DNA from: Antedon mediterranea
Lineage: Eukaryota > Echinodermata > Crinoidea > Comatulida > Antedonidae
Direction: 5' to 3'
Length of the DNA: 64,000 nt
Assembly: GCF_964355755.1 (NCBI RefSeq)
Contig: NC_092675.1
Span: forward strand, 6,420,312-6,484,311
The notes below the pieces were generated by a model. That model searched no databases and was not told where the DNA came from. It saw nothing but the letters and a program-made list of their open reading frames with translations. Shown here one piece after another: positions 1,730-32,178 of the stretch; position 1 is the first letter of the stretch, and every line of letters begins with the position of its first letter. Position numbers and translations under genes: made by a program.

Positions 1730-4700
1730 AAATGACAGACTGTACAGCCAGAAAAACACAGAGATTATTCAGCCTAGTAATTTATACTATGAACAATTTG
1801 AATTGCAAGAACTTGAAAAACGGGTAAGAATGATCATAGAGATATTGTTCACTATAATATCTCTATGGAATGATCCAAACAATTTTCGGAAAATACACAA
1901 GTTCAAATTCAAATATTCTTTATTCATCCTCAATCATGAAAATATACAACAACAATATATGAGAACATAAAAAAGATGAAAAGGAAACACATAAAAACTC
2001 AAAAGAGCTTGATTAGTTGTGTCCCCCTATGTCCCTAAAAACTAGCCTAAAAAACTAAAACATAAATAATAAAAAAAGCTAAATCCTGCAACAAGTATTA
2101 TTTTTAAAATTATTTGTAAAATGATAATAAATGTTCTTTAAACAATGATTTAAATATATATATTGATTTGGTACTTTGTAGTTCGTAATTCAAGTCATTC
2201 CACAATTTGGGTCCCACACATGACACAGTAAAACTAGTAGAAGTACGATTACGTTTTCTGAGTCTCATTTTGTCTTTAGATCTTGTATTATAATTATGGT
2301 AAGAACCATTTTTAATAAAGAGCGATGAAAAACGCACGTCCTGATTAGTAGTAACATTATACATGAAAAGCCCAATTTGGTACTTATTGATATCCGCAAT
2401 TTTAAGAAGTTTAAATTTATAGAAACATTCAGTCATTGAATCATTAAACTTTGACCATGTTATAGCTCGTAATGCCCTTTTCTGGAGTTTAAATAACTCA
2501 TCTAAATAACTTGGAAATGTGCTACACCATATTATGTTGCAATAATTTAATACTGGTTCAATGAGTGATTTGTATATTGTCCAGAGAGCATAGGTTGGTA
2601 AAAAATGTCTTACTTTATATAGTATGCCTACATATCGAGATATTTTCCTAGCTGTAACATTGATGTGGTTCTTATATGTGAGAAATTCATCAATATGTAC
2701 TCCAAGGAATTTAGTCGATTTAACTCTATCTATTCTTTTATTGTTGACATAAATATTTACATTCTCTAAATTACTTGGATTTCGCTGATTGCGGAAAATT
2801 ATGTAATTAGTTTTTTTAACGTTGATTGATAGTTTATTGCACATGAACCATTCCGAAACATTTTAACTAGTTCTATGAGCGTATCCAAGTTTTCGTGAGA
2901 TGCAGATATGTTTGTGTCGTCAGCAAATAAAACAAAAGATAACGAGTTTGAGCAATTAAATACATCGTTAATGTACAAAATAAAAAGTAGAGGCCCCAGA
3001 ATTGAACCCTGTGGTACACCGCAATTTATATCCATCAAACACGAACTTGTGTTATCAATAGACGTAAATTGTTTCCTTCCATTAATATAGTTTCTAAACC
3101 ATTTAAGGGCCGTGCCTCTTATGCCATAGTGTTCCAATTTTTTAAGAAGTATATCATGGTTGATGGTGTCAAACGCTTTTGACAAATCAATAAATATTCC
3201 GATGGTATTTTTTTTCTTATCAAGCGCATCGGTTATTCGTTCAACCAGATCTATAACGGCCATAAAAGTAGAACTGTTTTTTCTGAAACCATATTGTGCA
3301 TTATTAAGGATGTTAAACTTTGTGATATAATTATTTACTCTAATTTGAACAATTTTTTCAAGAATTTTTGAAGCGGTAGGCAGAATAGAGATCGGCCTAT
3401 AATTACTGACGTCACTTTTATTGCCAGATTTAAAAATTGGAACTACTTTAGCTACTTTCATACTATCAGGGACCATGCCTGTCTCAAGAGAGAGGTTAAA
3501 GATATGTACAAGAGGAGATGCCACAGCAGCAATAATATGTTTTAGAATGCGATTACTTAAGTTATCAACACCTTCTGAATTTGAATTTTTGATTTGACTA
3601 ACTATTTCAATGACCTCTTCTTCATTTGTAGGATTGAAAAATATGGATTGGGATTGACTCTCTTTCATATATTGTTTAAAGTCAGAATTGTTTACATTTG
3701 GTATTTTGTTTGCTAATTCATTTCCAATGTTGGAGAAGAAGTCATTAAAAGCGTCAGACACACCTTTTGGATCACATACCAAAGTTTTATTACTATGGTT
3801 AATTACCTCATTTGGCTTAACACTCGATTTTTTTCTATTTAGAACTTCATTTAAAACTTTCCATGTTTGCTTTGAATCGTGTCGAGCTGCATCCAGTTTT
3901 TTGGAATAATATTGTTTTTTCCGAATTCTAATTAAATGAGTTAATTTATTTTTGTACTTTTTATATATATTTTTTAATAATTGTGTTGGGTTTTTAAGGT
4001 ATTTTTTATAAAGTTTATTTTTCTTTTTTATTGAAATCAAAATTCCTGTTGTGATCCATGGTTTTTTCTTTGTATTACCATTTGGCTTATTACTTTTTGT
4101 AGGTATGTTATTATCTATGAGATTGGATAGTTTTTTAATAAATAGGTTATATGATGTATTGGTATCTGTGCATAAATATAGTTCACCCCAATCCTCATTA
4201 GAAATAGCAATAAGCAAGTTATTTAATGTTGTATCATTAATTATTTTTTGTTTTGTAATTGGAGCTTGTGTGTTAGTATTTAATGACAAGTGTGTTGTCA
4301 TGAAAATGGGTAGATGATCGGTAATGTCAGTGACTATTACTCCACAATGCGAAATGTTATCATCATTTGTAATAATATTATCTAAAATTGTAGCAGAAGA
4401 CGATGTTATTCTGGTGGGTAAGTTGATTAATGGACTAAAAGATGTTGAGTAAATAATGTTTGTGAATTCCTGTGTTGTTTTTTGAATGTCATATTTTAAT
4501 AAGTCTTGATTAAAATCTCCTAAGATATAGCAGTTTTTGTTTTCGCGATTAAGTTTATGTAAGATTTCTTCCAGATCAGAGTTAAATGAGTTGACGTTTG
4601 AATTTGGTGGTCGATACAACATACCTACAATAGTATTTTTGCCGTTTGTGTTTTTTATTTCTAGAAAAAGTGAATCAATGGAGTTATCATTAAATACAAA

Positions 4701-7700
4701 ATCATCACGTGTTACGGTGTTGATTTGTTCTTTTAAATATAGACAAACTCCACCACCGACTCTACCTTCTCTATTACAAGTGTACATATTGTATCCATTG
4801 ATATTTAATAAGTCAATTGGCGTGTTCTTATTTATCCAGGTTTCCGAGAAACCAAGTACATCAAACGCACGACCTATGGTATCTAACATAATGCTAATTT
4901 CGTCGAAGTGTTTTGGAAGACTACGTGCATTCATGTGTAACGTGGTAAAGATACCATCGTTATCAATTTGCGCCTGTAGCTCATTTAGTTGTGTTGGAGT
5001 GAAATATTTGCATAAACCAGCCTCGTCACTTTCAAAGCAATCTAAGGAATGTGTAGGACTCGATTTATTTTCATATTGAGTCGTGCTCATAAAGTAGTAT
5101 TGGAAAAGAACAAAATACAATCAATTCACCAAAGCTGTTAAGCAAAATGGCGTTCAAATAAATGACTAAAAACCGGCAGGTTAGCAATACAATAATAAAA
5201 AAAAACACAATTTACAATAAAAAGAATCACAATAAAGCACACACACCAAACAGTTAATGCAGTCTATAATGTATACAATAGTTAAAATTCTGGTTTCAGG
5301 GCAAAAACAAGAAATCTCACAATTTCACATTTAATGTACTACCACACGGTAAATTAGGTGGAATGCAGTTTGTTGAGATCGGAAAATTTTGTTACGACAA
5401 TCTTCTTATTATTCTTAGTTAGTACATGTATGCGTCCATCTTGGGTCCAGACTGCGGTCAAGGCGGAATTATGCTGGGTTTTGATGGTTCTTAACAATTT
5501 CATCCTTTTCATTGTTAGGTTCTCGTGTATAAAGTTGCTTTCCACTCAAAAGTGTTGGCAGCCAATGGGCATGCATATTCATATTTCCATCTATTTTTTG
5601 GGACACAACAACATTTTCAACCAATCATATCTCAGAAAATGTTTTATTTATTATACCCATAATATACTTTAATTTTTGTGTTTCTATAATTGTCAGGACC
5701 CGTGTTTGGAGGAAGTTGAAGTGAGCAGTGTAGTTGATACAAACATGCTGTACAATGTCAATGACAACCTGACTACAGAGAATGTCCTGGGCTCAATAAA
5801 TGATGGTAAGAACTTTCTACCTCCAATTCATAAAGAAATCATTCTTTAATCTATCATTTTTCAGTAACTACATTTATTGTCATATGACGATATAAATACA
5901 GTATAAATGCATTGTTATCCTTAACAGTAGGCCTATAAATGTTGTTTATCTTAGTCTACTACTTACAGAATAGAATGGCATTTCTGAACACTATTGGAAA
6001 CAGTCTTAATTTGGAGTTAGTATGCTACAAAAATTAGCCTATGTACCCTATGATACTTTTTTGAATAATAACAATGTGCTTAGATATTGAAAAACTTGGA
6101 GGAGTGAAACTGACCCAGAATGAACCATATGACTCAAGTCAACCAATCACAGTTAAGAAGTCACCAGAGGAGGCATTTATCGAGATCAACAAGACTGCCA
6201 ATGAAATATGTCAGCATCAGGATGATGGCATTCTAGAGTCTCCGTCAAAGACTGACATCAGCTTGCTGCCAATTTTTCTTCAGAACCTCACAGAATCATT
6301 GGCAAAAGAGATCATACCAACATTTGAATTTCCGTAAGAAACAGATGATACTAATTAACTATTTAAAAAATATTTTAATATTTAAATACTATTTTAATTT
6401 TAATTACTACTGTTTCCTTTGTTATCAAAGCATGTTTATATAAGTACTTACTTTTTTATACCATAATAATAACTAATACCACTTATAATAATATTTCTTG
6501 TTCTACATTTCTAAGAGTATTGATCTCAGCAGAAGAAAAAGAAAAACTGATGCAAGCATTGATCACGAGTGAGAGGTTCTTTAAGGATATTTCAACACTA
6601 ATATTAAAAGGTAAATTTTATTCCACAATTGTCTACAAAAATTTCATCTAGATCTTTTTATAAAAAGAAGTTTCTTTTCTCCTTTTGAAGGTAGAAAAAA
6701 ATGTATTATGTAAAATTAATCTTTTATTGTTTATGAAAATATGTAATGCTTTAATACTATTGAAAATGGAAGTCAATGCTTTCAAGAATAATATTTAAAA
6801 AAAAAAAAATAACATTTATAAAATTGTACTTTCAGTTCCTGTCAGTCCAACCAAAGTGCTTCTTGATAACCTCATTCAAGAAGCTCAGATGCTATTGAAT
6901 GCCAAACCAGAGCACTGTAGTGGAGAGCTAGAATTGAATCTGACATGGGATCCTGTAGCTGCATCAAAGCCTGATGTATATAGAGCTACAGAGCCACTGG
7001 ACATAGTAGCGAGCACAGAGGCTAAAGTTGTACCAACTGCGGCTGAGGAATTCTTTCCATTGGAATATAATGAAGGTACAGTAATATCTGCATAATATAT
7101 ATTTTACAGACATCAGTTGTGCTACAAATATTGCTAATGTGTGAATACACCATGGTTATTTTTTATGTTCAAAACTGTGAAATAAATGTGTACATTACAA
7201 CTAAAGCTTTGTCTACACTATCAAACTAGTTGGACAAAAAAAGTGTGATGTGCCCAAATATGATATTGATATGCCCAAATATGGTAGTGATATGTATATA
7301 TATATGTCCATATATGGGCACATCACATTTTTTTTGACAGTGTACCCATGGTATACATTTGTGAAAATCTTAAAATATAATACATAATAATATAATGCCG
7401 AAATAAAAAAGTTACTATTATGAGAACACGATTATCAACATTTAAATTTATACAGCAGCACACATTTATAGCATGCTATCAGCATTGCTTTACATCAATT
7501 ATAAAATTATGATTTTAATATGTATACCTGAAACAAAAATATAACTTGTATAGATTTGAAGAAAAACATTTATAAAACATTTTTACTCACTAAGCTTTGA
7601 ACACAATGGCAGAAGACAGAATGGACCTGACTCTGTCAGAGGTTTCTGGTGTTCCTTTAGTAGTTGTGGACCTGACTCTGTCAGAAGTTAATCCTGGTGT

Positions 7701-10700
7701 TCCTTCAGAATCAGAAGAGAAGATCGCTGATCAGCTTGAAGGCACGGTTAATGGACAAAGTAGTATTCAGACTAAAACAATGGATCAAAATAAGCAAGAA
7801 AACCAACATCATATGAATAATGAGCAATGTGAAGAAATCAGTGTGGAGAAAGATTGTATGGAAATTGAAGAAAACATCTTGAAATCACAAACACAAGAAA
7901 AAAAGTCCACTTATGCAGAAAAGGAAGAGGGGAATGATAATAGAATAGATATTGGAATACAACAACATAAATCACAAATAGATATCAGTGATGAAAAGAA
8001 ACAATGGGATTTGAAAAATGAAACTAGTTGTAATGATAAAACAGAAAAATATGGAGGAATATTATTTAAGGTGAAGAAAAATATAATTCAAACACAAGAC
8101 GGGATAAAAAGACGAAAACTAAAACATGATGAATCAAGTAGAATATCATTGCCTCTTACTGGGAACCCGGTTGATGATTTCTTCATGTTAAGAAATGGTA
8201 AAAGAAATTTAAAAATGGGTGAGGATACTACAAACATGACAGGAAGTGTAGAGAGTGCAGAGACATTTGGTAAAAGAAGTACGAAAATGGGTAAAGATAC
8301 TACAAAAATGACAGGAAGTGTGGAGAATGCAGAGAAATTTGGTAAAAGAAGTACGAAAATGGGTGAAGATATTACGAAAATGACAGGAAGTGTAGAGAAT
8401 GTGGAGAAATTTGGTAAAAGAAGCATAAAAACGGTTGAAAATGTTGTGGATATAAAAGCCGGGAAGGTTGAAAATACATCTGATGATATGAAAACAAGAA
8501 ATACAAACACAATTGGTCAGAAACTTTCTGGTGAGTATATGATTACATCTGTGAATTATAATGAATTGCAATTACTATATATACAAATATAATTGTTTAA
8601 CTGCTGCGAAATAGCTTTTTGCTACAGTGTTAAGTTAATCGATCAGATGTTTACCCTCTTGGGTGGGAGAGAATTACTTTGTTTTCAAAAAGTTGTCTAA
8701 ATGTACCGAGTGTACAGTACAATAATTATATCAGAGTAGGGGAATACATATCTGACGAATTATAAACATTTAAATATTTAAACAATTTTTAATTAAACTA
8801 CATTTCTACATTTTCTTAGAAACATTGACAGTTAATGAAAAATCAAGAGCAGATAATAAGAATATGGAAGAAGAAATAAGACCTATGAAAGAAAAACAAA
8901 GGAAAAGGACAAAATCCAAAATCATAGAAATTAATCTCCCAGGCAAGAATGCAGTTTACTATTTCTATTTGTTTAAATAAACACATTAGGCATAGAAAGT
9001 TAATTCTAAACAGCCCGGTGATATACTGAAATTTTATTAAATTATTAATTATTTATTTAAATAAATATACAATGTAAAAAAAAGATACTGTAAAAACAAA
9101 TTTCTTGTTTATTTAGAGTCCTACCAAAAAATACTGAATATTTTGGAAGATTGTGCAAAACCTGCTTTACGATTCTTAGTGTCAGTTGGACGTCTTCAAC
9201 AGACGGCTACATTCTACTTCCTAGAACCATGTGCTACCAGATTTATGATGAAACAACAACACCTTCAGCAAATGAACAATAATAATGGTAAGGACTGGTG
9301 ACAATACTTTCCTTTGTGTACACTCTTTCAGATCTGTAGGACCAGAACACGGATACCAGGCCCTACAGTATAAATTGCACATACTGGAGATATATAAATA
9401 GGCTCTATAAATGTCATTGTATGTTAAACATTGAAAGAAGCCCATCTCGAAAACAATGCCACCCTTCTTTGGTTTGCAATACTCATTTGGAAATGAAGCC
9501 CATCTAGCAAAGAAGTACCGTACATGAGATTCGGTATTAGGGGGTAGCCCTGGCTAGGTTAGTCCTGCTGCATATCACGATTAGAGTTTCGTCCTAATTT
9601 GTTTAAACAATCCTTTAAAGACTTCATTTATCATTGTATAGAGTACAAGTTTACCATTATTCTTCATGCTATGGTGTCTTCTGCTGACCTCTTGTGCAGA
9701 TGTGACCTTACCTCACATCCTAATTTGTTTAAACAATCCTTTAAAAACTTCATTTATCATTGTATAGAGTACAAGTTTACCGTTATTCTTCATGCTATGG
9801 TGTCTTCTGCTGACCTCTTGTGCAGATGTGACCTTACCTCACGTCCTAATTTGTTTAAACAATCCTTTAAAGACTTCATTTATCATTGTATAGAGTACAA
9901 GTTTACCATTATTCTTCATGCTATGGTGTCTTCTGCTGACCTCTTGTGCAGATGTGACCTTACCTCACGTCCTAATTTGTTTAAACAATCCTTTAAAGAC
10001 TTCATTTATCATTGTATAGAGTACAAGTTGACCGTTATTCTTCATGCTATGGTGTCTTCTGCTGACCTCTTGTGCAGATGTGACCTTACCTCATGTCCTA
10101 ATTTGTTTAAACAATCCTTTAAAGACTTCATTTATCATTGTATAGAGTACAAGTTTACCATTATTCTTCATGCTATGGTGTCTTCTGCTGACCTCTTGTG
10201 CAGATGTGACCTTACCTCACGTCCTAATTTGTTTAAACAATCCTTTAAAGACTTCATTTATCATTGTATAGAGTACAAGTTTACCATTATTCTTCATGCT
10301 ATGGTGTCTTCTGCTGACCTCTTGTGCAGATGTGACCTTACCTCACGTCCTAATTTGTTTAAACAATCCTTTAAAGACTTCATTTATCATTGTATAGAGT
10401 ACAAGTTTACCGTTATTCTTCATGCTATGGTGTCTTCTGCTGACCTCTTGTGCAGATGTGACCTTACCTCACGTCCTAATTTGTTTAAACAATCCTTTAA
10501 AGACTTCATTTATCATTGTATAGAGTACAAGTTTACCATTATTCTTCATGCTATGGTGTCTTCTGCTGACCTCTTGTGCAGATGTGACCTTACCTCACGT
10601 CCTAATTTGTTTAAACAATCCTTTAAAGACTTCATTTATCATTGTATAGAGTACAAGTTTACCATTATTCTTCATGCTATGGTGTCTTCTGCTGACCTCT

Positions 10701-13700
10701 TGTGCAGATGTGACCTTACCTCACGTCCTAATTTGTTTAAACAATCCTTTAAAGACTTCATTTATCATTGTATAGAGTACAAGTTTACCATTATTCTTCA
10801 TGCTATGGTGTCTTCTGCTGACCTCTTGTGCAGATGTGACCTTACCTCACGTCCTAATTTGTTTAAACAATCCTTTAAAGACTTCATTTATCATTGTATA
10901 GAGTACAAGTTTACCATTATTCTTCATGCTATGGTGTCTTCTGCTGACCTCTTGTGCAGATGTGACCTCCCTACAGTATACATTCATCTCAGAGCTTTTC
11001 AGCAACAGTACAGGAACATTCTTAATGGTAAGAAATTTTAGTTAAAACATGTAGTTCTTGTTTTCGTAATTATAAAGATACATTACATATTTCAAGAGAT
11101 TGTGGGAGATTGTAATTGCATCAGTGTATATTGTAATACATGCTTTGGAAAACTGAAGAATTTTATGCGTTGTTATGTGTTATGATTTTACAGATGAACT
11201 GCAAAATGTGATAGACAAAATGTTTGATAAGTTACAGATACTTGATAAGGAGCAAGTTCAGTCACCAAAAATTACAGAGCTTATTGAACAGCTTCAGAGC
11301 TGGTACACTCGTAAGATAACAAAGGAAGGAAGTGATCACCAGCCTAAGGTTTGCATATCAACTCATTTTTATCCTCATTATGAATGTAAAGAATTAAGAT
11401 AAAATAGATATAAAAGATAAGGAGAATTTAATTGTGGTGTGGTGTTATTATTATCATCATCATCGGTACAATCACAAAGCCATAATCTACAATGATGTCA
11501 ATTGCCTTTACTCCTTCTCAAAATCAATTATCATTGGTGGATACCATTAACTCCAAAAAAAAACTAAATCCTCCGCAAAATATTTTTCCTTTTTTTCCAT
11601 GTCTAATATATTAAATTATATATTCAATTTACAGATACTAATTATTGTATCATTTGATGTTCCTAGCTTAGTGAACTCAATCTGCAAATCCATTGGTCAA
11701 TTACCTTGTAAGTATTCAATTCAACTTGTCATAACAAGTGTATAACACAGAGTCTTTGAGAGAAGATGTATTTTTATTCATATTAATGCTAGTTTAGACT
11801 AAATAGGCTTGTATAGATTTTGTACACTGCTAACTAGTTTAATATATCACTGCTTGACAAAGGCCTCTGATCTAAAATCAACTTTCTCTATCTTTGGCAT
11901 TCCATGTCCATACTGGTGAGTCTGCTAAACTTACTATTTCGTACTACATTGAAAGTAATGCATATAATAAGAAATTCTAAGCTGTCTATCAAAAATATAG
12001 AAAACAAATTATATGTGAATGATATGTATTAATAAATGAGAAAACATGCAAGTGAAAACATTTCCCAACCAAGACTTTTTTCCCTAAAATGTTCATTTGT
12101 ATCATGTATAATATAAAATACAATTTTCATTTTTCCATTATATAGATTTTATATGCAAATACTTTGCTGGTAGTGGCTATAGAGATATATCATCCCAACT
12201 GGACCACTGTAACTGCCTGGTCCTTAAGGAAAGCCAGATTGGTGAGGACTTTCCCTGGGCTCATTTCTCCCTGGTAGTAGGGTATGCACACCGCATAGAA
12301 TCACCATGGGAAGAAATGTGTAATAGACAGAATATACGGTATATTGCACTCAAGATGGTCTGGCCACCGCACAATGACAAGAATCATCTGGGTAAGAGTG
12401 CATATACAAATAATGAATGTTTAGTTGAATGGAGAAAATGTTTTTCTGAACTGAAAGATGGACTGGTCTATTCAATAATTTTTTTTCTAATCTAAAGCCC
12501 TGTTTACACTATCAAACTAGTTTAACAAAAACAGTGTGATGTGCATAAATATGGTAGTTATATGCCCAAGGGTGATATGACATCATCATGTCCATATATT
12601 GGCACGTAACATTTTTTTGTCACATAAAGTTTGATAGTGTAGACATAGCTTTATGCTCTTTAACAAATATGGTGCTTGAAATTTGGCCACTCACATATTA
12701 GTTTTTGATTGGGCATTTCATAATTAAGCCTACCACTTTGCACACAATTCATGGATATACTCCAGTACATTTTTTTTTTATGTCGTAGAATTGCCTTACT
12801 GTTCTAAAAGCAGACTATTATTTTAGAGGAATGGAAAAAATTATTAAATCATTTTGTTTTCTTAAATAGGAACATCCACAGCAGGTGAGACTGAACCGAT
12901 TGTGAATGCTGTTATAGGCTCATCAGCAGTCACTTCCAATCATCATCTTCTGCAATTGTTAGAAGCAAGGTTAGTCTAAGTTTGTAGGCAGAAAATTTAA
13001 AATTATATACATTAACATGTTGTGTTATACCTGAGCTCTACCATAACTTGGGGAAATTCTAATCAAATGCAATATCAAAAGATAATTGATTTGATTAGAA
13101 CATGGAGCTTATTCCTCCATGGTTAGAACTAGGTTTAATAATAATGTGAAATATTTCATTAGGTTTAGAAACTATAACAATTTTTGTTTGTGTTTGTATT
13201 AATATATTTATTGTGGTGGTAGTGGCGTAATTCAGAAGCCCAAGGCCCCTGGGTTAGGGACCCTAAGTGACTCCGACGCTAGAGGCGTTTTTTTGCTTTT
13301 TTCAACATATTTTAATGCCTCTTTTTCCCTTTGGTCTGGGCCCTGGTTTAAGCCAGTAAAGCTCATAGCTGCAACACCGCTGTGGGGCGGGTCAAACATA
13401 TATAACTGTATTTCTATATTACACACAATGTTGCTATGTTTGTGGAAATAAATTAAAATGCATAGACATAAATATGCTTCTCAATTGAATTACGTCATGA
13501 GGTGGTTTCCCGAATGATCGTAAAATCAAAACGATACTGGGTATGACCAACTAGCATTCTTGTCACCAACTAGTCATCCATTCATAGAGTACTGATGTAG
13601 CAGCCTCTGTACGGTGACTATAGAATGTGACCTGAGACATGACTAACCATGAATTTTAGTTGATAGAAGATTGAAAAATTTGTTATGAAGAGTTAAACTT

Positions 13701-16700
13701 TATGTGGATGTTTAATGAATTTATGTCAATAATGTTTACATACTAGGCACAGTAATATTTCTTAGTACTGTATAAACAATTTTCAGTTAATATCGTGATG
13801 TGGTTTCCTAAATGATCGTAAAATCAAAACGGTACTACTATTACGTACTAAATTACTGTATCATTAAAGATTTAATTTCCAAGTGCTTGAAAGAGATTAT
13901 CTTACCGACCAATCTGCCTCAACTTGCCAGTCGTTTCCAGACATTGTGATCGATGAGAGGACCTGCATAATTCTACTACCTTCAAAGCAATTGACAGAGG
14001 AAAACGCTGTTGATTTCGTTATCAACAGGATAGTTGGGTTAAGTCTTCAATGTTGTTACTGTGCTGTCTTCATATGTAATGACGATGCATCTGCAAGGTA
14101 ACATATTTTGATATGTTCAATTCATAAGATATAGATGACAAAACAGTGGTCGTATTCACCATTCAAACTTAGGGAGAAAGGGAAAGGGAAGCACTTACCC
14201 AAAAAATAAATAGAAATTGTAGCTTTGTTTTCTTTTATTTATTATTAGTTTTTTTTTCTTTTTATTTTTCGTATTTAATGTTATATCTTGAGGTGGGTCA
14301 AACTTAAAGTGTTTCTGACTTAAGTATGACTCTCCCCCCACATGATTACTTCATTGTATTTATTATCCTGTATGTTATGTGATTATACTGTGGAAATAAA
14401 TTGAATTGAATTGAAAATTTAAACAAATTCCTATCTATTCTAAGTAAATACAATTGAAGGGAAATATTTAAATACTTACTGAGATAAGTAAAATACACAA
14501 TATTTAAGGGAAATATCTCACTAACTTTGATTGTTGAATAAGAGTAAGACCACCGAGTCTCAAGGATGTTGTCTTTCTGATACATGTACGTCAAGCGCAA
14601 TAATACAAAAATACATAAAATAAAGGTAATTAAAAAGATTGAAGCCACTTTTCCCTTTTCCCACAGATAGCAATTATGCATTTAAGTTCAAACTTAATGG
14701 ATATGTACATTGTTGATTGATATATCAATATTTAATGTTTTTCCTCACAGCTACACATATTCAGGGCAGATGATAAACAACCTAGCAAGATTACATGCAG
14801 TAGCTGCACAATATTCTCCTTCCACCAATGATTTTGAAATCAAGGTATAATAATATTGTGTGAATAATTATGATAAAAATAATAACATTAAAATAAATCA
14901 TCATTATAAAATAGACATCACTGTCTACACTAACTTTATGTGACAAAAATTGTAATGTGCACATATATGGACATGATGACATATTACTACCATATTTGGG
15001 AACATCAAACTAGTTTGATAGTGTAGACAGAGCTTTACTTTCTTCATTAACAGATACTGTATTGTTACAGTCAGGAGCAAACGGCACAACTTGTGAGATC
15101 TGTAGCGGATGCTTCGTTGGAAAGAAATCTTGAATGCAAAAGATATAAATTGTCTGAAACAATAAGCAAGGTACAGTAGTTAAAATCCAATACCCTTTTC
15201 ACATCTACATAAATTGTAACAACTTGTAACCAGGTTTGATCTCCCCCGATTTATTACACGTTTTCATACACACAAACACGAACCCTAAGAAATCTCGGAA
15301 GGAAAGCATAGTGTTGGTTCAAGACGGAGTTTTGTCTTAATATTAGTAAAAAGATAAATATTTTGGCACATATGGCGTTTCATATGTATACTACTTGATT
15401 TTGGATATGTATTTTCAGACAAAAATCGAAATAAAAACAAATAAATAAAAAAAAAGACAATGAATACAGACTTGGGGCAAGTCTACATAGTTGCATGCTA
15501 TTTGATTACTATGATTGGTCAGTTTAATACCAGGGCAATACACGCATGCACGGTAAGAACTGGAAACATTTCAGAACTAAAACAGGCCTCATCAGAGGCC
15601 CATCATCCTGAAATTGTCCACAAAATTGTATTCACACTGCAAACCTGGTTACAAGTTGTTACATTTTGCAGATGTGAAAGGGATATTAGTCGTTAAATCC
15701 ATTAACGCCCCTTAGCTTTCCTTTTGTGGGTTTTGGATCAACAGTTATACCCTTCAATATCCCTTGTTATTAATTTATTTTAATATAAGATAAATAATAT
15801 ATAATATCTATATTTTTGTATTTTCATTGTATAAATGTATTTTGTTGGGACTCCTTTGGAAACAAACCTTTGGGCTTAAAGGGTTATCCCTTGCTTTCCA
15901 TGTCTTTTTCTAAAGTCTTTGATGAATTATTCTATGTATTTATTTTCATTCATATTTTATGCTGTTTTATAAATTGTAATGTTCTTGGAAAGCAATAAAT
16001 ATTACTTAAATACTTCACATTGCTTAACAAAAACAAGTTTACACACACCATACAATACAAAATACAGGTGTTGTGTGTTGTTAAACTCCGGAGATAGCTA
16101 GGTGAAAGAGCTTCAAGATTCTAACAGACACAAGATCCTTTTGCAAGAGAAAAAAGAAATATAAACTTATTTTTTCTTGCAGCAAGAGAAGTTTCTTCTG
16201 TCCTTGCCATGTTTCAACTCCATCAGTGCCCAGCAGGTACTGTCCACTCACGGCCTTAGAAGCATCTTCCACATGTCCTTACCAAATATGATGAAAACAT
16301 TTGCATGGTTACCAAATAAAGTACTGGAGGTAATTTATAATTCTAAAGTTAAGGATGTATTGTCCTCCAAAAACATGAAAAATGAAGATTAATAAAATCA
16401 GACTTTGAATATGCTATTTTGTAGTTTTAACAAAGTTAATCACTTTCGTAGAAAAAAAAACGAAAAATGTTTTCAGTTATGAAGTGATAAACGGTTAAAT
16501 TCAACCAAAAACCCATTGGCTGGCAACCAATTTGACTATTTTTGCTTTAAATTACAGTTTTTTTAACTTTATAATATAAAAAATATTTTTTCACGGGGAC
16601 AATATATCTTTAAATAAAATATATATAATATAAGTAAAAGCAAATCTAATAGGGAGGTTTCGCAACCTTACGAATACGATAACGAAAACGGATACGTCAC

Positions 16701-18341
16701 ACATTTGTGAAACTTTTGAGCTGATTCCCATTTCATATTCGTAAAGCGTATTCGTGTTGACGAATATCACCAGTCATATTCGTAACTACAAAACGAGTAT
16801 AGTTTTTGATCTATTTTGCACATTTTGCATTTGAATTAGGAATGATTCATGATTATAATATAATTATAGATTTATTGAAAGTAATTTACTAAAGTAATTT
16901 ACTAAAATGCCAGGTCAATTTAGATAAATAGCAGTTTTTAAAGTCCTCACTCGCTTTGATGTTACGCTAGGCCTAGGCAGCCAAGCACCAAGTACCTGCG
17001 CTTCTCTCAAATTTACCGCAGTCATATTTTGGACGCACCTCAATATTTCGTTGCCATGCGAAACAGATTTTTTTATGGCTTACGAAAACGAATACGTGTG
17101 CGTGACGTATCCGTTTTCGTTATCGTATTCGTAAGATTGCGAAACCTCTCTATTATTGATTCAATTGTTATATCCTTTTTTAGGGGTTGTATTCGATCAT
17201 GCATCGTAATGAAGATATAAAACCAAAACTTGATCTACCTTTTACTGAGAACATTCCATTAGATTGTAGAGAGGAAGGCAAAGCTAAAAGCATGGCATCA
17301 TATGACCTTCACCCAAAGCCGAGTGAAATTAAAGTGGAACCATTTGAATTTCCTAGTTTAGATTTTAAAAAGAATGAATTCCATGACTTTGGTACCAAGG
17401 ATTCAATTGAACATTCTGTCTCTCGAAACTTATTCCCCGACAAATACGAAGCAATGGATCAACAATATGAACACGCTATGAAAGGTTGGCCAACATTTCA
17501 AGATTCTAACAGATTCTGTATTGATAATCGCATTACGAATCAACCAGCAACATTTGAACATTTACCATGGGATAGCCATGGTATACAATCCAATATGTCA
17601 GGTGTTTCAAATAGTATGTCACACCATGAACACTTAGCAGGTGATATTTTTGGTAATGCAGTACCTAAAGCATTTCAATCGCAACAGATGAATCATTATC
17701 ATACTTCACCGATGAATCATTATCATACTTCACCGATGAATCACTATCATACTTCACCGATGAATCATTATCATACTTCACCGATGCATCAATTCTCAAC
17801 GGACCTATGGAATAATGCTAGAATGACAATTCCAGGAAATTTGGAAACTCAAAATAAATATTCCACGTCTGGTGCATACAAGCCTAGGAAAACATTTGGC
17901 AATCATCTGTCAGAACAAAGTTTTATGTCTGGTGCATACAAGCCTAGGAATACATTTGACAATTCCCTATCAGAACCAAGTGTTCAGTCTGGTGCATACA
18001 AGACTAACAATACTCCTAATCATCTGTTACAAGAAAGTATTATGTCTGGTGCATGCAAGCCTACCAATATTTTTGGCAATCCCCAATCAGAACAAAGAAC
18101 ATTTCGTAGAGACAGTTATGGTTATGTAGGAATGAATGAAATGCCTTTTGATAGAGTAACAGCAAATACCCAGCAGGAACAGAAAGACTGTCGGTTCCCC
18201 AATAGATTTGTTAGCAGTGTTCAGGAGGATGAAGAATTTAATTGTGCTATGGCAAGACGTGTCATGAATCCTACAGATCCTCCAAATAGAAAGGCACACA
18301 CTCTACCTTGGGAAACATTTGATGCATGGAAGGATCCATAA
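1730..18341 (+). CDS. SHOC1: SHOC1-like XPF-fold meiotic crossover protein (5' incomplete, 18 visible exons)
   Basis: Exons: 1730-1823, 5697-5805, 6084-6333, 6516-6610, 6836-7075, 7595-8530, 8820-8942, 9117-9287, 9585-11027, 11194-11348, 11635-11707, 12146-12391, 12870-12969, 13870-14097, 14751-14844, 15054-15170, 16183-16329, 17184-18341. All junctions agree in phase; about 1926 residues are visible. Evidence for an XPF-family fold: a nuclease-like segment (QVLERDYLTDQ, then PDIVIDERTCIILL; exon at 13870) and a helix-hairpin-helix segment (LLSLPCFNSISAQQVL; exon at 16183). The canonical ERK of active XPF nucleases reads ERD, so it is probably non-catalytic, as is known for SHOC1/ZIP2 proteins, which work with SPO16 in stabilising meiotic recombination intermediates. 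A PVDDFFMLRNG motif lies in the 7595 exon. Without about 420 residues of repeat expansion the length approaches the ~1440 aa of mammalian SHOC1. The intron after 8942 uses a GC donor. The 1730 exon is the least certain. Another XPF-like family member is the main alternative name. Confidence 0.72.
2110..5090 (-). pseudogene. LINE ORF2: endonuclease plus reverse transcriptase, one frameshift
   Basis: The N-terminal part is an apurinic-endonuclease-like domain (LHMNARSLPKHFDE; GFSETWI; YILGDFNQDLL; TDITDHLPIF). The reverse transcriptase follows, with KVVPIFKSG, NYRPISILP, GIFIDLSKAFDTI, GVPQGSILGPLLF and the catalytic FADDT. Reading then passes to another frame near 2835-2845: the upstream frame ends soon after KMFRNG, while the downstream frame continues from FMCNKLSINVKKTN to a stop at 2110. 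A one-base indel is enough to explain this, so the copy is probably inactive but young. I place the start at the methionine of MSTTQYENK rather than ten residues upstream. Confidence 0.85.
5354..5545 (-). pseudogene. C-terminal fragment of LINE ORF1
   Basis: About 60 codons ending in a TAA stop at 5354. The segment FIHENLTMKRMKLLR followed by TAVWTQDGRIHVLT resembles the end of the ORF1 proteins carried by many echinoderm and cnidarian LINEs (a motif of the type 'ENLT..N..LL....KLK..G.I...WT.DGRI.V'). A stop lies just upstream in frame, so the 5' truncation of the element probably falls near 5540. Homology is by pattern recognition only. Confidence 0.6.
7205..7346. mobile_element. MITE family A copy 1 (PIF/Harbinger-like)
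   Basis: The left end reads AGCTTTGTCTACACTATCAA after a TAA. The internal GTGTGATGTGCCCAAATATG and the reverse-complement GGGCACATCACATTTTTTT are present. The right terminal repeat is degraded. Lies in a SHOC1-like intron. Confidence 0.75.
8200..8445 (+). repeat. 72-bp in-frame coding repeat, three units plus a partial fourth
   Basis: Within the 936-base SHOC1-like exon, units begin at 8200, 8272, 8344 and (partial) 8416. Each full unit encodes 24 residues starting KRSTKMGEDTTKMTGSVE and ending in a glutamate/phenylalanine/glycine stretch. The period is a multiple of three, so the frame is kept. It lies in a lysine- and glutamate-rich, probably disordered part of the protein. Confidence 0.9.
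9593..10977 (+). repeat. Eleven-copy 126-bp in-frame tandem repeat inside a SHOC1-like exon
   Basis: Units begin at 9593, 9719, 9845, 9971, 10097, 10223, 10349, 10475, 10601, 10727 and 10853; the period is exactly 126 bases (42 codons). Each unit encodes a segment starting PNLFKQSFKDFIYHC and ending VSSADLLCRCDLTSR. Units differ at only a few positions: isoleucine or valine after the lysine/phenylalanine/threonine, asparagine for aspartate in unit 2, leucine for phenylalanine in unit 4, and R/H/C at the unit end. The last unit runs into unique coding sequence (PTVYIHLRAFQQQYRN) and a GTAAGA donor at 11028. The whole array is open and in phase with the exons before and after, so it can be translated as one 1443-base exon. 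Confidence 0.95.
12496..12650. mobile_element. MITE family A copy 2
   Basis: Terminal inverted repeats AGCCCTGTTTACACTATCAA and TTTGATAGTGTAGACATAGCT are flanked by TAA on the left and TTA on the right. The internal sequence matches the other copies. Lies in a SHOC1-like intron. Confidence 0.85.
14150..14415 (+). mobile_element. Probable LINE 3' tail with (TTGAA)n end
   Basis: The segment ends GGAAATAAATTGAATTGAAT, a short TTGAA tandem typical of the 3' termini of Jockey/CR1-type LINEs. No coding part remains. It lies in the intron between the exons ending at 14097 and starting at 14751. Confidence 0.45.
14912..15034. mobile_element. MITE family A copy 3
   Basis: The left end (ACTGTCTACACTAACTTTAT) is slightly rearranged. 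The right end GATAGTGTAGACAGAGCT is intact and followed by TTA. It ends only about 20 bases before the exon at 15054, so it contributes much of the DNA just upstream of that splice acceptor. Confidence 0.8.
16652..17150. mobile_element. MITE family B copy 1 (TA-flanked, Tc1/mariner-like)
   Basis: The ends read GGGAGGTTTCGCAACCTTAC and the inverted CGTAAGATTGCGAAACCTCTC, flanked by TA on both sides (16650-16651 and 17151-17152). The repeats extend inwards through ACGATAACGAAAACGGATAC. It ends about 30 bases before the final SHOC1-like exon. Internally it is inverted relative to copy 2. Confidence 0.85.
17688..18100 (+). repeat. Two coding repeat arrays in the SHOC1-like C-terminus
   Basis: Array one (17688-17783) is four 24-bp units encoding MNHYHTSP. 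Array two (about 17868-18100) is four units of 57-60 bp, each starting SGAYKP or a close variant and rich in asparagine, serine and glutamine. Both lie in the last exon and keep the frame. The tail looks disordered and fast-evolving, as is common at the C-terminal end of meiotic scaffold proteins. Confidence 0.88.
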
Positions 18342-23800: not shown

Positions 23801-26800
23801 TGCAATTAATTCAATAATAAATAACCAATTAACACTGTGAACACATGGCAGAATTTCCTTTCTATATCATGCCATCGGGTCACTAATCTATTTCTTCTAA
23901 TCCATCATTAACGTAAATCTTCTAATTGTAACCCTGGGTCATTATTCTTTGATTTTAGGGTGGGTTACTATTAGAAGGGGGGGGGGGGGTTACTATTAGA
24001 ACTCTAACTTTATTTTATAAACTTAAAAACACTCAATCTTCACCCACTCCCGAGATCAACATGCATTATTTCCTTATTTTCAAAATACGGCTGCATCATA
24101 AACGATCAATAGTTTTTGTGACTCTAATAGTAACCCCTAGATTGACTTATAAGGTGGGTTACTATTAGAAGGTGGGTTACTATTAGAAGGAGGGTTACTA
24201 TTAGAAGGAGGGTTACTATTAGAAGGAGGGTTACTATTAGAAGGAGGGTTACTATTAGAAGGAGGGTTACTATTAGAAGGAGGGTTACTATTAGAAGGAG
24301 GGTTACTATTAGAAGGAGGGTTACTATTAGAAGGAGGGTTACTATTAGAGTAGTGGGTTACTATTAGAAGGTGGGTTACTATTAGAAGGAGGTTACTATT
24401 AGAAGGAGGGTTACTATTAGAAGGAGGGTTACTATTAGAGTAGTGGGTTACTATTAGAGTAGTGGGTTACTATTAGAAGGAGGGTTACTATTAGAAGGAG
24501 GGTTACTATTAGAGTGTGGGTTACTATTAGAGTAGTGGGTTACTATTAGAGTAGTGGGTTACTATTAGAAGATTGACGGTAATACATTCTTATAGCCTAC
24601 CTCATCATCTTCATAGCCACCTGCCAAAACAATTGAATAAGCACCTTCTATTTCACGGCCATGAATTCCTGCCACGTGAGGGCGGTGTATACCTACTTCG
24701 CTGACTTGAACCCTGAACTTCCACTGTGTTCCGACGTGTATTCCAGGTATTTCTCCAAAGTGATTGGGTGGTACAATGGTACAAATTTTTGACCGACCAA
24801 CGCATGCCATACCCTAAAAAAAAAAAGCAGACAATTTCAAGCAACACTTCAGGAACCCCTTTAAATGGAACATTACTTTTAAGTGGGCACTTTCCTGTGA
24901 AGCGAATGAGGGGTCTTATGAGCCTTTAACACAAAACGTGAAGCGGAAGTGTGGTTAAGCAGAAACCTGCCAAGGATAGATAAAAATTCTACGTGGGAAA
25001 ATCGCAGTTTTTCCGCTCACCGCTCGTGTAAATTGGCCTTTATGGCGCTGCACTGTTCAAACACACAACATCTAACATGCATTGGAAGTAAATCAAATAT
25101 AAAATGTGTTGAATCTACCTTTCCCCAATCACGTTTACAAGATGATTTCGACGACGCCATTTTGGCCTTCTTCTTGCTCTCCTTCAGTTTTTGACCAGCT
25201 TGCACCACTTCACTTGCATCATTTTTACATAGGGGACAATACCTTAAAAAACAATAATATTGCTTGGGTCCAATACAATCAACTTTGGCAAAGACAATTT
25301 TCTTTATTTCTTTCGCTAATCGAAGGTTTGCCCCATACTAATAAATACATTAAATACAAACAATAACACTGAAATAGCAAAAGCAATACATATCAATGAA
25401 ATTAGCATAATAAAAACACAAAAAAAACCCCATTAAGACTTGACCGTCTAGTCTAAACTAAATATCGAGAGACACATTTCTAATAGACACGATAGTTTCC
25501 ATAGCAAATCATATATTTGCTTGATTACATCACATTTTACAATAGGGAGGTTTCACAATCTTACAAATACGATAACGAATACGTCACGCACACGTATTCG
25601 TTTTTCGTAAGCCAGTAAAAATCTGTTTCGCATGGCAACGAAATATTGGGGGCCCCGTCCAAAATATGACTGCGGTAAATTTGAGCGAAGCACGGGTAAG
25701 TGTTGCTTGGTGCTTGGCTGCCTAGGCCTAGCGTAACATCAAAGCGAGTGAGGACTTTAAAAACTGCTATTTATCAAAATTGACTTGGCATTTTAGTAAA
25801 TTACTTTAGCAAATTATTTTCAATAAAAGTATAATTATTTTATAATCATGAATCATTCCTGATTGAAATGCAAAATGTGCAAAATAGCTCAAAAACTATA
25901 CTCGTTTTGTAGTTACGAATATGACTGGTGATATTCGTCAACACGAATACGCTTTACAAATATGGAATAGGTATCAGCTCAAAAGTTTCACAAATGTGCG
26001 ATGTATCCGTTTTCGTAAGGTTGTGAAACCTCCCTAATAACCATAAACTTACCATTCGTCAACATCTGGGATTGACGCAAGGGGCGGGTCTAGACAGTAC
26101 AGATGGTAGGCCATATCGCACTCGTCGCACATCAGCTGTTTATCAGGGTCTTCTTTCCCGCCACATTTATGACAGGCGCATTGCTTGCATTTCTTGTCTG
26201 GGTTATCTTTACAAACATTACAATCTGGCTGGTTAGTTCCTGCAAAAAATAAATAATAAAATATATTATATAATACCTAAATAAATTTCTGTCATTTGAT
26301 TTGACGATTGTGGGTCACATGGAATGCAATATACGCACTATTAAACGATCGTTTAATAGTACTTTTTTTTGTGTACAAAAAAAAAATCTGCTACCTTTTA
26401 TTCGATTCAAATGACAGGAATCTATTTAGATTTTATATAAAACAAATAATGAATGTTTTATATTCGTGTAATGGTACAAATAATGGCATTTAGCTGTCGC
26501 CTTGGTGATATATAACCTTTCATTATTCACCTTATGCCATTATTTATACCATTACACTCATAAACATTCATTATTTGTATAATATTATCTGTCAGCTGGG
26601 TGCAGTAGAGTTAAGGATCCATAGGAAGGAGTTGCGCTTATCTGAATAAAATATGTCTATTTTTGTGCTGTTGGTACAAATACTTTTTACATTATAGAGT
26701 ACTTACTTCTAACCGAGGATGGGTCTTCAAGATCAATGCTAGTTTCTCCGTATTTCTCAATTTTGTAAATTTCATCCGTGAACTTTATTTTGCAATCTTT

Positions 26801-29800
26801 TAGTGAATCACCAGCTGGGCCCAGAATAACGTCGCCTATCAGCTCATTAGACGTTCGACGAGATTTCTGAAGAAAATAATAAACAAATTATTTTGAGGTG
26901 GGCCTGGTATGAATGGAATACAGTAACAAACTATTACATAACACAAATAGATTCCTGTCATTTGATTGGACAATTGTGGGTCATATGATAAAACTTAAGT
27001 GCTTTTAATGTTCAGCATAACAATGTTTTGCGCATACTCCAGCGGCTTTGCGCATGCTCTATCTCTGTGTAATTCGGGGAATAAAACTCCAGACAATGCA
27101 TGTACACATTTTGACATTAATCCAGTATTTAAATATTGATTTCAAAAGTTCCAGTACCATAAATAACAAATTTTTATCAATATGGATAAAAAATATCAAT
27201 CAAATTTACCATGCTTGTGATTTCTAAATCATACCAAAAGCCTCGGTCAGCAGGGTCATCTGAATTGTAGTTTGCCATCACCAAATCGCCAACCTTCATC
27301 TCGTCCCACTTCAAAACTGTACGTGCCCGCGGCCTCATGTATTTGCTGTTCAAATTGGCAACTTCATTATCATCATACCTAACAAAATTTAAAGCAGAAA
27401 AATATTATTTCTTGGACCATAAAAATATTCTATCTAACTATAATTTGTTAAATAAGTCAATATTTTTATCCCCAAGTGAATAAAATCTGTACTTGGTTGA
27501 CCTCGTCAATTGTAAGTTTAAAATATTTATCCAAGCTATATATTAATCCAAAGGCAAATTACTGAAAATATGTCAGTGGCTGGATCTCAATGGAGATACT
27601 GTACAAAAAAAAAAGGCTAAATCAAAACGATAAAGTAAAACAGCCAGAACAATTAGCAGAGCTTTCAGGCAACACTAGCCCTAAATCAGTGCAAGTAAGC
27701 TATACATAATACATACCCCTCAAATTTTACATGATATATTAAAGATCCCTCTTCTGGTAAATCTATTCCATCCACTTTTGATTCAGTTTCCATGTCTTCA
27801 CATTTTTCTTCTTTCTTTTCCTTTTGTTCAGTGGTTTTCTCAACTGTCTCATTCTGATTTTGATCTACAATTTGTTCATTTGATTCTTCAGTTGTTTTAG
27901 GAGACTTAATTGTAATGCTTGTGATGCTTGCCTCAAACCAAGCACCCATACTTATATCCATGGCATCTACAATATCTCCAACCTGTAATAAACAGATTGC
28001 AATTAAAGTGCTACAAACAGATTTGTGTTTGGCGATACAAATGTTATTTGTAATAATTACATTTTCCTGGCAAAGTAAAAGACACACTGTAAGCTTAGCC
28101 TAGACTCATCTTTGCGATATCCTTACAAAAAATGAAATTTGTAATATCTGCCAAACAATCATACCAATAAGCAGATAAAATGAATTATATGGGCCTACTG
28201 ATCATAAAAAAATAGTAGAGCCGCTTTAGGGGACCAAAAAAATGTCCCTTAATGTAAGTCCATAAGTTATATAGTTTAGTTTGCTTAATTTGTTTCATGA
28301 GAAAGTGTATTTTTAACTGGATATAGGCGTCCCTCCCAAAGGACTGTATAAGAATTGAAGGAGAATTTGATTTTTACAATAAAGAATAGTTACCACATAT
28401 GTAAACTATCAAACAATGTAACAATGAATTATATAACTTAAATAATTTGACTATTGTACAAATACTACATTATTCCATTACAATACAATTATATTGTGTA
28501 TAAAATAGAAACATTGTTATAATGGTTAAATGTACTCAACCGTTTAACAATTATTTTTCACATTGCTTTGTTCCTTTATCTACAGTTGCTTAATACAAAG
28601 TTCAATGTTTTCCAGGACAATTACTAAGAAAGAAACACCAACTGGGATACATTTATATTTTATTTTTAACCACAAAATATTTCAAATTGTTTAATCACTT
28701 ACCTTGTAATGACCTCTAAGTTTATTGACCTCGCTACTGCTGGAGGGGCCATCTTCTGTTGCTATGGCTGCGTCGCCACTGTAGCTTCCGCTACCTGACT
28801 GTTCGGAGTCGCTAACCTCGGAGCAGAAACCACTCTCCGGTTTACCCTCCTCAGATTTTTCTTCATCGAGTTGAGGAGGCGGCTTTTGCACCATAATCTG
28901 TACGATTTCATTGAGACCAACTTTATAGTCAAACAGTGAGTGCCCATCAACAAGCTGAAAAATAAAAATGAAAAAAGAAATGTTTATATTTTATTATTAG
29001 AATCTGGCCAAATCCAAAAGCACAATATATTACAACAAAACATCACACCACATGTATGTAAACATGAGGGATAGTTTACTTTAAGAGTAGTTGACCTCAT
29101 GACCTTGCAGCTGCAAAATAGGGAATTTTTGTGATCATAAGGATAAAAACACAAAAAAAATAATGTTTAACAAATTTTGTTTAAATGCTATACAGTACAT
29201 TAATTAGAAAGAATGCAACTATTATGCCGCACTACTAAAGTTTTCCTTAAACTTATATTCAAGGCTTGTATAGCAATTAAAACTCAACACAAAGGTTTGT
29301 TTCTGGTTAAGACATTACAAATCATGTGGGCATATAAATAGGTCAGAAGGCCACAATGGTAAAGTTACTACATACAGAGATCAGATTCACACACAACATT
29401 TCGCATGAAATTCAGTACATTTGGCAAGTATCCCAAAAATACATTTTTGCAGTGATCAGGTAAAGATGACATTCTCAATAGACTTTATATATGAATTACA
29501 TATCATTGGGGAAAAAGAGAATATAAAGGTTGATATTTTATACAAATTCAATGCTGTTTTTCAAATGGCTATAACATTAGGCAATAATGTGAATGGAGAA
29601 TAGAAGATGGTATTTTGGCAAAGAGGATTGATAAAAGCCGAGCTGGTTTAAGACTAGTGGTTAGACATTAGGTCAAGGTTCAAGGGTAATACTAATAGAT
29701 GATCCGGAACACAGCCCAATTGTTAAGGGCCCACCTGCCACCTCAAATCGGTCAACAATTTTTGAGAAATTATTCAGATGATTAGGTTAATAATTTAGGA

Positions 29801-30846: not shown

Positions 30847-32178
30847 CCTGATTTATTTCGCTAAAACTCTCTTTTGTAAAATGGATGTGTACTTGATCCT
30901 CAAGTTGTTAATCAGACATGAACTATTCTTCAAGAATGTTTCAACGTTCTATATAGCCACTTTTTTCCCAGATAATCACAACACAACGCTAGCTATAAAA
31001 ACGTAACAACAACTGAGACCTCGCACAGATTACACATGTAGCAAGTGGCGCGAAAGGTCTTAAATGACCTTATTATAATTATGGTATCCAGACGTTGTTT
31101 AGACATAGGCCTATACACTATAAGTCAAATTTTTTTACATTTTCCGTATTGTTTATTATGATAAATCAATCATAATTTCAATTATATTTTAGATATTTCT
31201 TATACATATACTAACGCAGTCAATATTAGTATCATAATTTTCAAATAGGTAATCATCAATGATTATTTTATTCATCAATTTTAATTCTGTGCTAAACTAC
31301 TCCACAATTGCCTAGAGACTAGTATAGGGAATATTTTTTAATAAAATCCAATAGATTTTTGGATTTTTAAAGCTATTTTTGTACTCCAGTTCTTTATTAT
31401 TGTTTATTTTACATGCGTAAAATATAATCAATGGAAATATGAATAAATAGACATGAAAAATAGCAAAGTTGGTTTAGTGATTCCGTAAAAACGGCTGTTT
31501 ACAGAGTCTATTAAAACGACCCCTGGATGTTGTCGATGTTGCGGAGGGTTGTTTACAAAGTTGTGCAGGATAAACTGTTGGTTTTACATTTCGGTATCGC
31601 TAATTTCGTTGGTTTATGTCAACAATAATATGTGCACCTAATACTCAAATAGTTAAATTATTTATATAAATATTAATCAACTAAGTTGTGTTTTATTAGG
31701 GCTAAATAAAGCCCATGTTAGTTGTAAGCTAGGGCCTAGCTAAGATAAGCTAGCTTTGCTAGGCCTTGCATTTTATGCCATTTTATTTTTTTAATAGAAA
31801 GTAAGCCTACATTCCTTCCATTTTAGCCTTTTGTAGATAGCTAGTTTAGTAAGCTAGGGAGGCTAGCCTATGCAGGTTCTGGCACCTGAACCCTTTATTG
31901 AAATACATGGCTAGCTAGCAGTACTTAGTAGTAGCAGTGGAATTAACATGGTCTCATAATGGGTACTTCCTGATAAATATATAATCAAGAAATGATGACG
32001 TACAGTACTAACATAATGTACAGTACTAGCTAATCTACAGATTCACGGTTGACCATGCCTAAATAAAACTTTTAATTACTATGATCATGCCAACAGCGTC
32101 ATCCCTCTACTTGAAGTAAGTAAAGCTGTAAAATATATTAATAACTTATATTTTATACTTTTTATCCAAGCTCAAGCA
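30847..32178. promoter_or_regulatory. Head-to-head intergenic region of UHRF1 and PNKP
   Basis: The UHRF1 start codon (30846, minus) and the PNKP start codon (32179, plus) face away from each other across 1332 bases with no ORF of note. An upstream non-coding PNKP exon is possible, ending at a GTAAGT donor near 32114 and spliced to an acceptor just before 32177; it contains an ATG (32081) that would be out of frame with the PNKP start, that is an upstream ORF. I see no reliable TATA box. A shared bidirectional promoter is inferred from the arrangement only. Confidence 0.4.

Follow-up and report, generated by a model that had tools for sequence, protein, structure and literature searches.

Tandem alternative acceptors (NAGNAG and similar) are competing in-frame 3' splice sites, which give rise to isoforms with or without an insertion. 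Among duplicated 3' splice sites, the one nearest to the donor is often favoured under intron definition, and the one yielding the shortest exon is favoured under exon definition. The minisatellite of the human IFI6 gene (6-16/G1P3) reportedly has a unit of about 12 bp, with only a few residues being changed. According to the title of a 1995 report, this minisatellite contains multiple splice donor sites (Nucleic Acids Res. 1995, 23:1854; reference in PMC2572611). Minisatellite DNA has also been tied to splice-site choice in C. elegans, in which the intronic minisatellite CeRep25B is over-represented near alternative splicing regions (PMC4039745). In the meiotic-recombination gene PRDM9, a minisatellite of near-identical in-frame units encodes exonic zinc fingers, the DNA-contact residues of which are under positive selection (PMC3890296, PMC8925151). 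The binding of SHOC1 to SPO16/TEX11 and its role in crossovers are experimentally determined properties, and its XPF-like domain is required for crossovers in mouse and human (PMC13245411). Here we analysed a stretch of 64,000 nucleotides of the Antedon mediterranea genome (the window), in which a 126-bp minisatellite spans the intron 7/exon 8 junction of SHOC1. Judged from its sequence, the array is very probably an amplified copy of this junction, offering eleven near-identical in-phase 3' splice sites.

The repeat array and its host gene

The array extends from position 9590 to position 10968 of the forward strand and was delineated by Tandem Repeats Finder (TRF), a unit-by-unit comparison and a genome search. 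The period is 126 bp, with 10.9 copies, 98% matches and no indels. Six of the ten full units are identical to the consensus and the remaining four carry one to three substitutions; the eleventh unit is an exact copy until unique sequence takes over after position 10968. The differences between units are confined to positions 1, 2, 31, 63 and 67 of the unit, and the mean pairwise divergence is 0.98%. These values bear out a preceding interpretation of this DNA (the sequence-only reading) in its claim of a recent in-phase amplification of a near-identical 126-bp segment. Units 2, 4 and 7 share a variant at position 67, a pattern that shuffling of the copies by exchange would produce, and the changes at positions 1 and 2 (CG to TG, CG to CA) seem to resemble CpG decay. 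In the 354-Mb genome, the matches listed for the unit all fall at a single place, and its interpretation as a piece of a dispersed element was rejected, as the unit matches are confined to the array locus. A dispersed repeat is present within intron 7 (9424-9515, forward strand), for which about 40 further genomic matches are listed, and it stops about 75 bp short of the array.

The array itself is far beyond chance. For the genomic background, we used a sample of 29 loci amounting to 89.5 kb of the same genome and biased towards one dispersed repeat. TRF returned 95 rows for this sample, none of which reached a period of 50 together with five copies and 95% matches. The array is therefore large and homogeneous by the standards of this genome, in which tandem repeats in themselves are nothing unusual. 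Near-identical copies are where assemblies err, and the real copy number might be much lower, or even one. We regard such an artefact as very improbable, given that an array of 1.4 kb is short for long reads and that the assembly comprises 18 contigs for 354 Mb. The scattered unit-specific substitutions also speak against an assembler having copied a single unit.

Other features of the window include a non-LTR retrotransposon ORF that encodes endonuclease and reverse transcriptase domains (2802-5120, reverse strand) and an LTR-retrotransposon-like ORF encoding domains of reverse transcriptase and RNase H (51280-53796, forward strand). A probable gene for polynucleotide kinase 3'-phosphatase (PNKP), with 3'-phosphatase and kinase-type AAA exons, lies at 32053-34980 on the forward strand, and a UHRF1-like gene with a tandem tudor domain exon at 27689-28990 on the reverse strand. 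An 18-bp array of 23 copies (24147-24571) has an open minus-strand frame (NPPSNS repeats). A further two arrays, of about 18/41 bp (49127-49291 and 49825-50003), about 530 bp apart and near the LTR-type element, are apparently reverse complements of each other.

Seventeen SHOC1 exons with matching phases were modelled in the window (5697-18341, forward strand), and the gene extends upstream of position 5697. The encoded protein matched PF17825 (DUF5587, SHOC1 family) with 151.7 bits against a cut-off of 25, in one stretch covering residues 546-1100 of 1449, which upholds the earlier assignment of the host to a meiotic SHOC1-like gene. A PF17825 profile search of the genome gave two matches, both at the array locus, among the matches listed. 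The array would consequently sit in the only SHOC1 candidate of the A. mediterranea genome, these counts being lower bounds. A search for a retrocopy revealing the spliced form of SHOC1 found none, and no solved structures of SHOC1 relatives were found by sequence. Exon 7 (9117-9287, forward strand) ends in phase 1 with the donor AATG|GTAAGG, and exons 6-7 alone match PF17825 at 571-641; exon 9 (11194-11348, forward strand) is likewise part of a PF17825 match. The introns other than intron 7 are 166-1012 nt long. Exon 6 (8820-8942) has an apparent GC donor (CCAG|GCAAG). Three more tandem repeats are located in exons 5 and 17 (8196-8423, 17687-17791 and 17867-18097), with periods of 72, 24 and 60 bp, respectively, which are multiples of three and in frame.

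The start of exon 8 and the anatomy of the unit

The sequence-only reading had placed the whole array in a single exon of 1443 nt with an acceptor at 9585, encoding eleven full units of 42 residues. Acceptors were scored with a matrix trained on 16 other acceptors of the same gene, all from one gene; the left-out scores of these acceptors ranged from -4.0 to 9.3, which makes the scale rough. The proposed start (9585-9589, forward strand) is a weak acceptor with a score of -2.1, equalled or exceeded by 1355 of 3196 other AGs of the window, i.e. no different from a random AG. Each unit contains a further acceptor, CTTCATTTATCATTGTATAG|AGTACAAG (TATAG|AG), with a score of 8.1, a value matched by 58 of the 3196 AGs. 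The first of these eleven sites (9642-9643, forward strand) is in phase with exon 7 and followed by no stop; the other ten, with the same score, are located at 9768, 9894, 10020, 10146, 10272, 10398, 10524, 10650, 10776 and 10902 of the forward strand. The acceptor core sequence is identical in all eleven copies, and the scores fall within the range of the gene's own acceptors. The exons starting at 9642 and 10902 were both checked directly and are stop-free and divisible by three. The remaining nine acceptors are in frame because the period is 126 and the frame is open. A weaker in-phase AG (score -2.4) sits 21 bp upstream of every TATAG acceptor. The GC content steps from 0.27 to 0.42 across the TATAG acceptor, as at other junctions of SHOC1. 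Codon-usage scores, a weak test, did not cleanly separate the two halves of the unit, the exon part being low too.

Other acceptors were tried and rejected. Were the array wholly intronic and followed by a 51-nt exon at 10977 (CCCTACAG|TATAC), the acceptor score would be -5.0 and the loss of the unit would cost 27 bits of the family match. The use of TTGTGCAG acceptors leaves exon lengths with a remainder of 2 and shifts the frame. The earlier suggestion of partial skipping through TTGTGCAG fails on this point, exon lengths not being divisible by three. The site that would allow variable inclusion is TATAG|AG, which had been overlooked.

The start of the exon was also evaluated with the family profile, using a fragment of exons 7-11 into which different versions of the unit were inserted. 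The PF17825 score was 57.4 bits without the unit and 58.0 bits with only the 5' intron-like part of the unit. The best score, 84.1 bits with a continuous match over 599-847, was obtained with exon 8 starting from the 10902 acceptor. One whole unit gave 81.2 bits, and the advantage of the exon-part start (84.1 versus 81.2 bits) is small taken alone. The score was 65.7 bits when the exon part was shuffled and 56.6-65.2 bits when the whole unit was shuffled or reversed. Adding a second copy lowered the score from the best value to 75.7 bits, in agreement with the proposal of a single ancestral copy. For the whole protein, the match increased from 113.6 bits in two stretches to the above-mentioned 151.7 bits in one when exon 8 was taken from the last acceptor. 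The profile match to the unit plus its tail starts at residue 20, the E created by the TATAG acceptor; this start was seen in a profile run that predated any thought of such an acceptor.

Both lines of sequence analysis suggest that exon 8 most likely starts elsewhere than at 9585. A 1443-nt exon would be open and in phase, and the family fit remains good with one full unit. However, its acceptor is indistinguishable from a random AG and the extra 5' residues reduce the family score relative to a start at TATAG|AG, so that we give this version very little credence. The open frame through the units, as originally described, holds; the single exon from 9585 does not, given its poor acceptor and intron-like 5' part. 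The 52-bp 5' part does not improve the family match and has a strong in-phase acceptor at its end, which argues against the whole unit having been the ancestral coding sequence. The ancestral exon 8 is probably the segment 10902-11027 of the forward strand (126 nt, phase 1 to phase 1), which gave the best profile score together with exons 7 and 9-11. Its length equals the array period, which appears to be a coincidence.

In each 126-bp unit, the end of the intron would account for 52 bp, the start of exon 8 for 67 bp and a filler (TACCTCA) for 7 bp. The intron-end part, found at 9590-9641 of the forward strand in unit 1 and recurring in every unit, makes no contribution to the family match, has a GC content of 0.27 and would carry a polypyrimidine-like tract in addition to the TATAG acceptor. 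This 5' part (CGTCC...TATAG; "FIYHCI...") looks like the end of intron 7. The exon part encodes EYKFTIILHAMVSSADLLCRCDL, about 23 residues, a stretch common to the SHOC1 family. By the profile comparison, the conserved, ancestrally coding portion of the unit would consist of these residues; an ancestral coding unit of 42 residues, as first proposed, did not survive the analysis. We propose that the minisatellite arose at the intron 7/exon 8 junction of SHOC1 by a single 119-bp duplication, after which the array would have grown by unequal exchange or slippage. The 7-bp filler at the duplication join would have happened to make the unit length divisible by three.

Putative splice outcomes

Splicing of exon 7 to the last acceptor (10902) would produce the standard SHOC1 protein. 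With the acceptor of the k-th copy, the junction of exons 7 and 8 would gain 11-k additional segments of 42 residues with no frameshift, and the putative products range from none to ten such segments. Mixed acceptor use is plausible because the SHOC1 introns, apart from intron 7, are short. It is quite possible, if short of probable, that more than one acceptor is used.

The forward frame is open across all units (9563-11041, 492 codons from stop to stop). The Pfam hits of this raw ORF (Latexin, Aft1_OSA and others) were dismissed because they add up weak matches that recur along the array, and no stretch passes alone. For a 126-bp unit of this DNA, it is nothing special to have some forward-strand frame open, as 31% of random pieces treated as circular units do. 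Without selection, a unit would be open in the required phase with a probability of about 10%, estimated from a period divisible by three (1/3) and an intron part open in the needed phase (0.30). The intact in-phase frame may accordingly be luck; it speaks mildly, without being a proof, for inclusion being tolerated or used. Under the coding reading, the five types of difference between units would all be non-synonymous; they give no sign of protein constraint, although a set of five is too small to count.

The open frame would be a coincidence in the case of a passive intronic minisatellite: with the last acceptor alone in use, the ten upstream copies would be removed as part of a 1614-nt intron. 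The best family fit belongs to this acceptor, and repeats are common in the genome, as indicated by the TRF rows of the background loci. However, the array presents eleven acceptors with an identical core sequence, and the first of them lies at an ordinary intron length (354 nt, within the range of the other introns). We consider exclusive use of the last acceptor rather unlikely.

With the first acceptor, intron 7 would take this length of 354 nt, typical for SHOC1, and a constitutive exon from 9642 would comprise 1386 nt and 462 residues, with the frame open throughout and each protein carrying ten additional segments. When the array ORF was modelled by AlphaFold2 from its single sequence, a regular helical repeat was predicted, each unit having helices of about 15, 9 and 11 residues; the confidence was low (mean pLDDT 63.8, pTM 0.53, five models 35-64). 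Apart from the low confidence of this model, such an exon would exceed every other exon seen in SHOC1 and would insert 420 residues where PF17825 aligns without a large insertion. Predominant use of the first acceptor is, in our judgement, unlikely. The earlier claim that about 420 residues are inserted in SHOC1 is retained as one possible outcome, not as the default.

If several acceptors were indeed used, the array could act as a splice-site ladder. Graded SHOC1 isoforms would then contain 0-10 helical 42-residue modules near the XPF-like region, close to which the insertion point appears to lie. The set of isoforms would vary between individuals with the copy number, making the length of a crossover factor both spliced and genetically variable. 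We put this forward tentatively and regard it as rather doubtful in its full form. Use of the upstream copies would mean that the repeat copy number directly sets the range of protein isoforms, without a frameshift, in a crossover gene. It would also provide a natural experiment on spliceosome choice among near-identical acceptors at growing distance from the donor. If the upstream copies were unused, the locus would be an example of a repeat that mimics a giant coding expansion although a good part of it is intron.

Comparison with described systems

The SHOC1 array resembles CeRep25B in that minisatellite DNA is associated with splice-site choice; CeRep25B is enriched near alternatively spliced regions, whereas the SHOC1 repeat contains the splice site itself. 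Like PRDM9, SHOC1 is a meiotic-recombination gene with near-identical in-frame minisatellite units. The PRDM9 units, however, are exonic and selected at their DNA-contact residues, whereas those of SHOC1 contain the end of an intron and gave no sign of such selection. In-frame competing 3' splice sites are shared with NAGNAG acceptors, which consist of two sites a few bases apart; in the SHOC1 array, eleven sites are spaced at 126 bp and preceded individually by an upstream intron-end sequence. A literature search for acceptor counterparts of IFI6 found no match, which is weak evidence limited by the phrasing of the search.

By analogy, and as far as the title of the IFI6 report allows, IFI6 appears to be the closest precedent for the SHOC1 array. 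In both cases, a tandem repeat at an exon/intron boundary would multiply a splice site. As in an IFI6-like system, the splice site in each SHOC1 unit is of ordinary strength (eleven at 8.1), and the alternative sites are in frame, with a period of 126 and stop-free exons from the first and the last acceptor. The two loci differ in the type of site, which is a donor in IFI6, as its title states, and an acceptor in SHOC1, and in scale, the SHOC1 unit of 126 bp corresponding to 42 residues per step. The use of multiple sites is claimed by the title for IFI6 and only predicted for the SHOC1 array.
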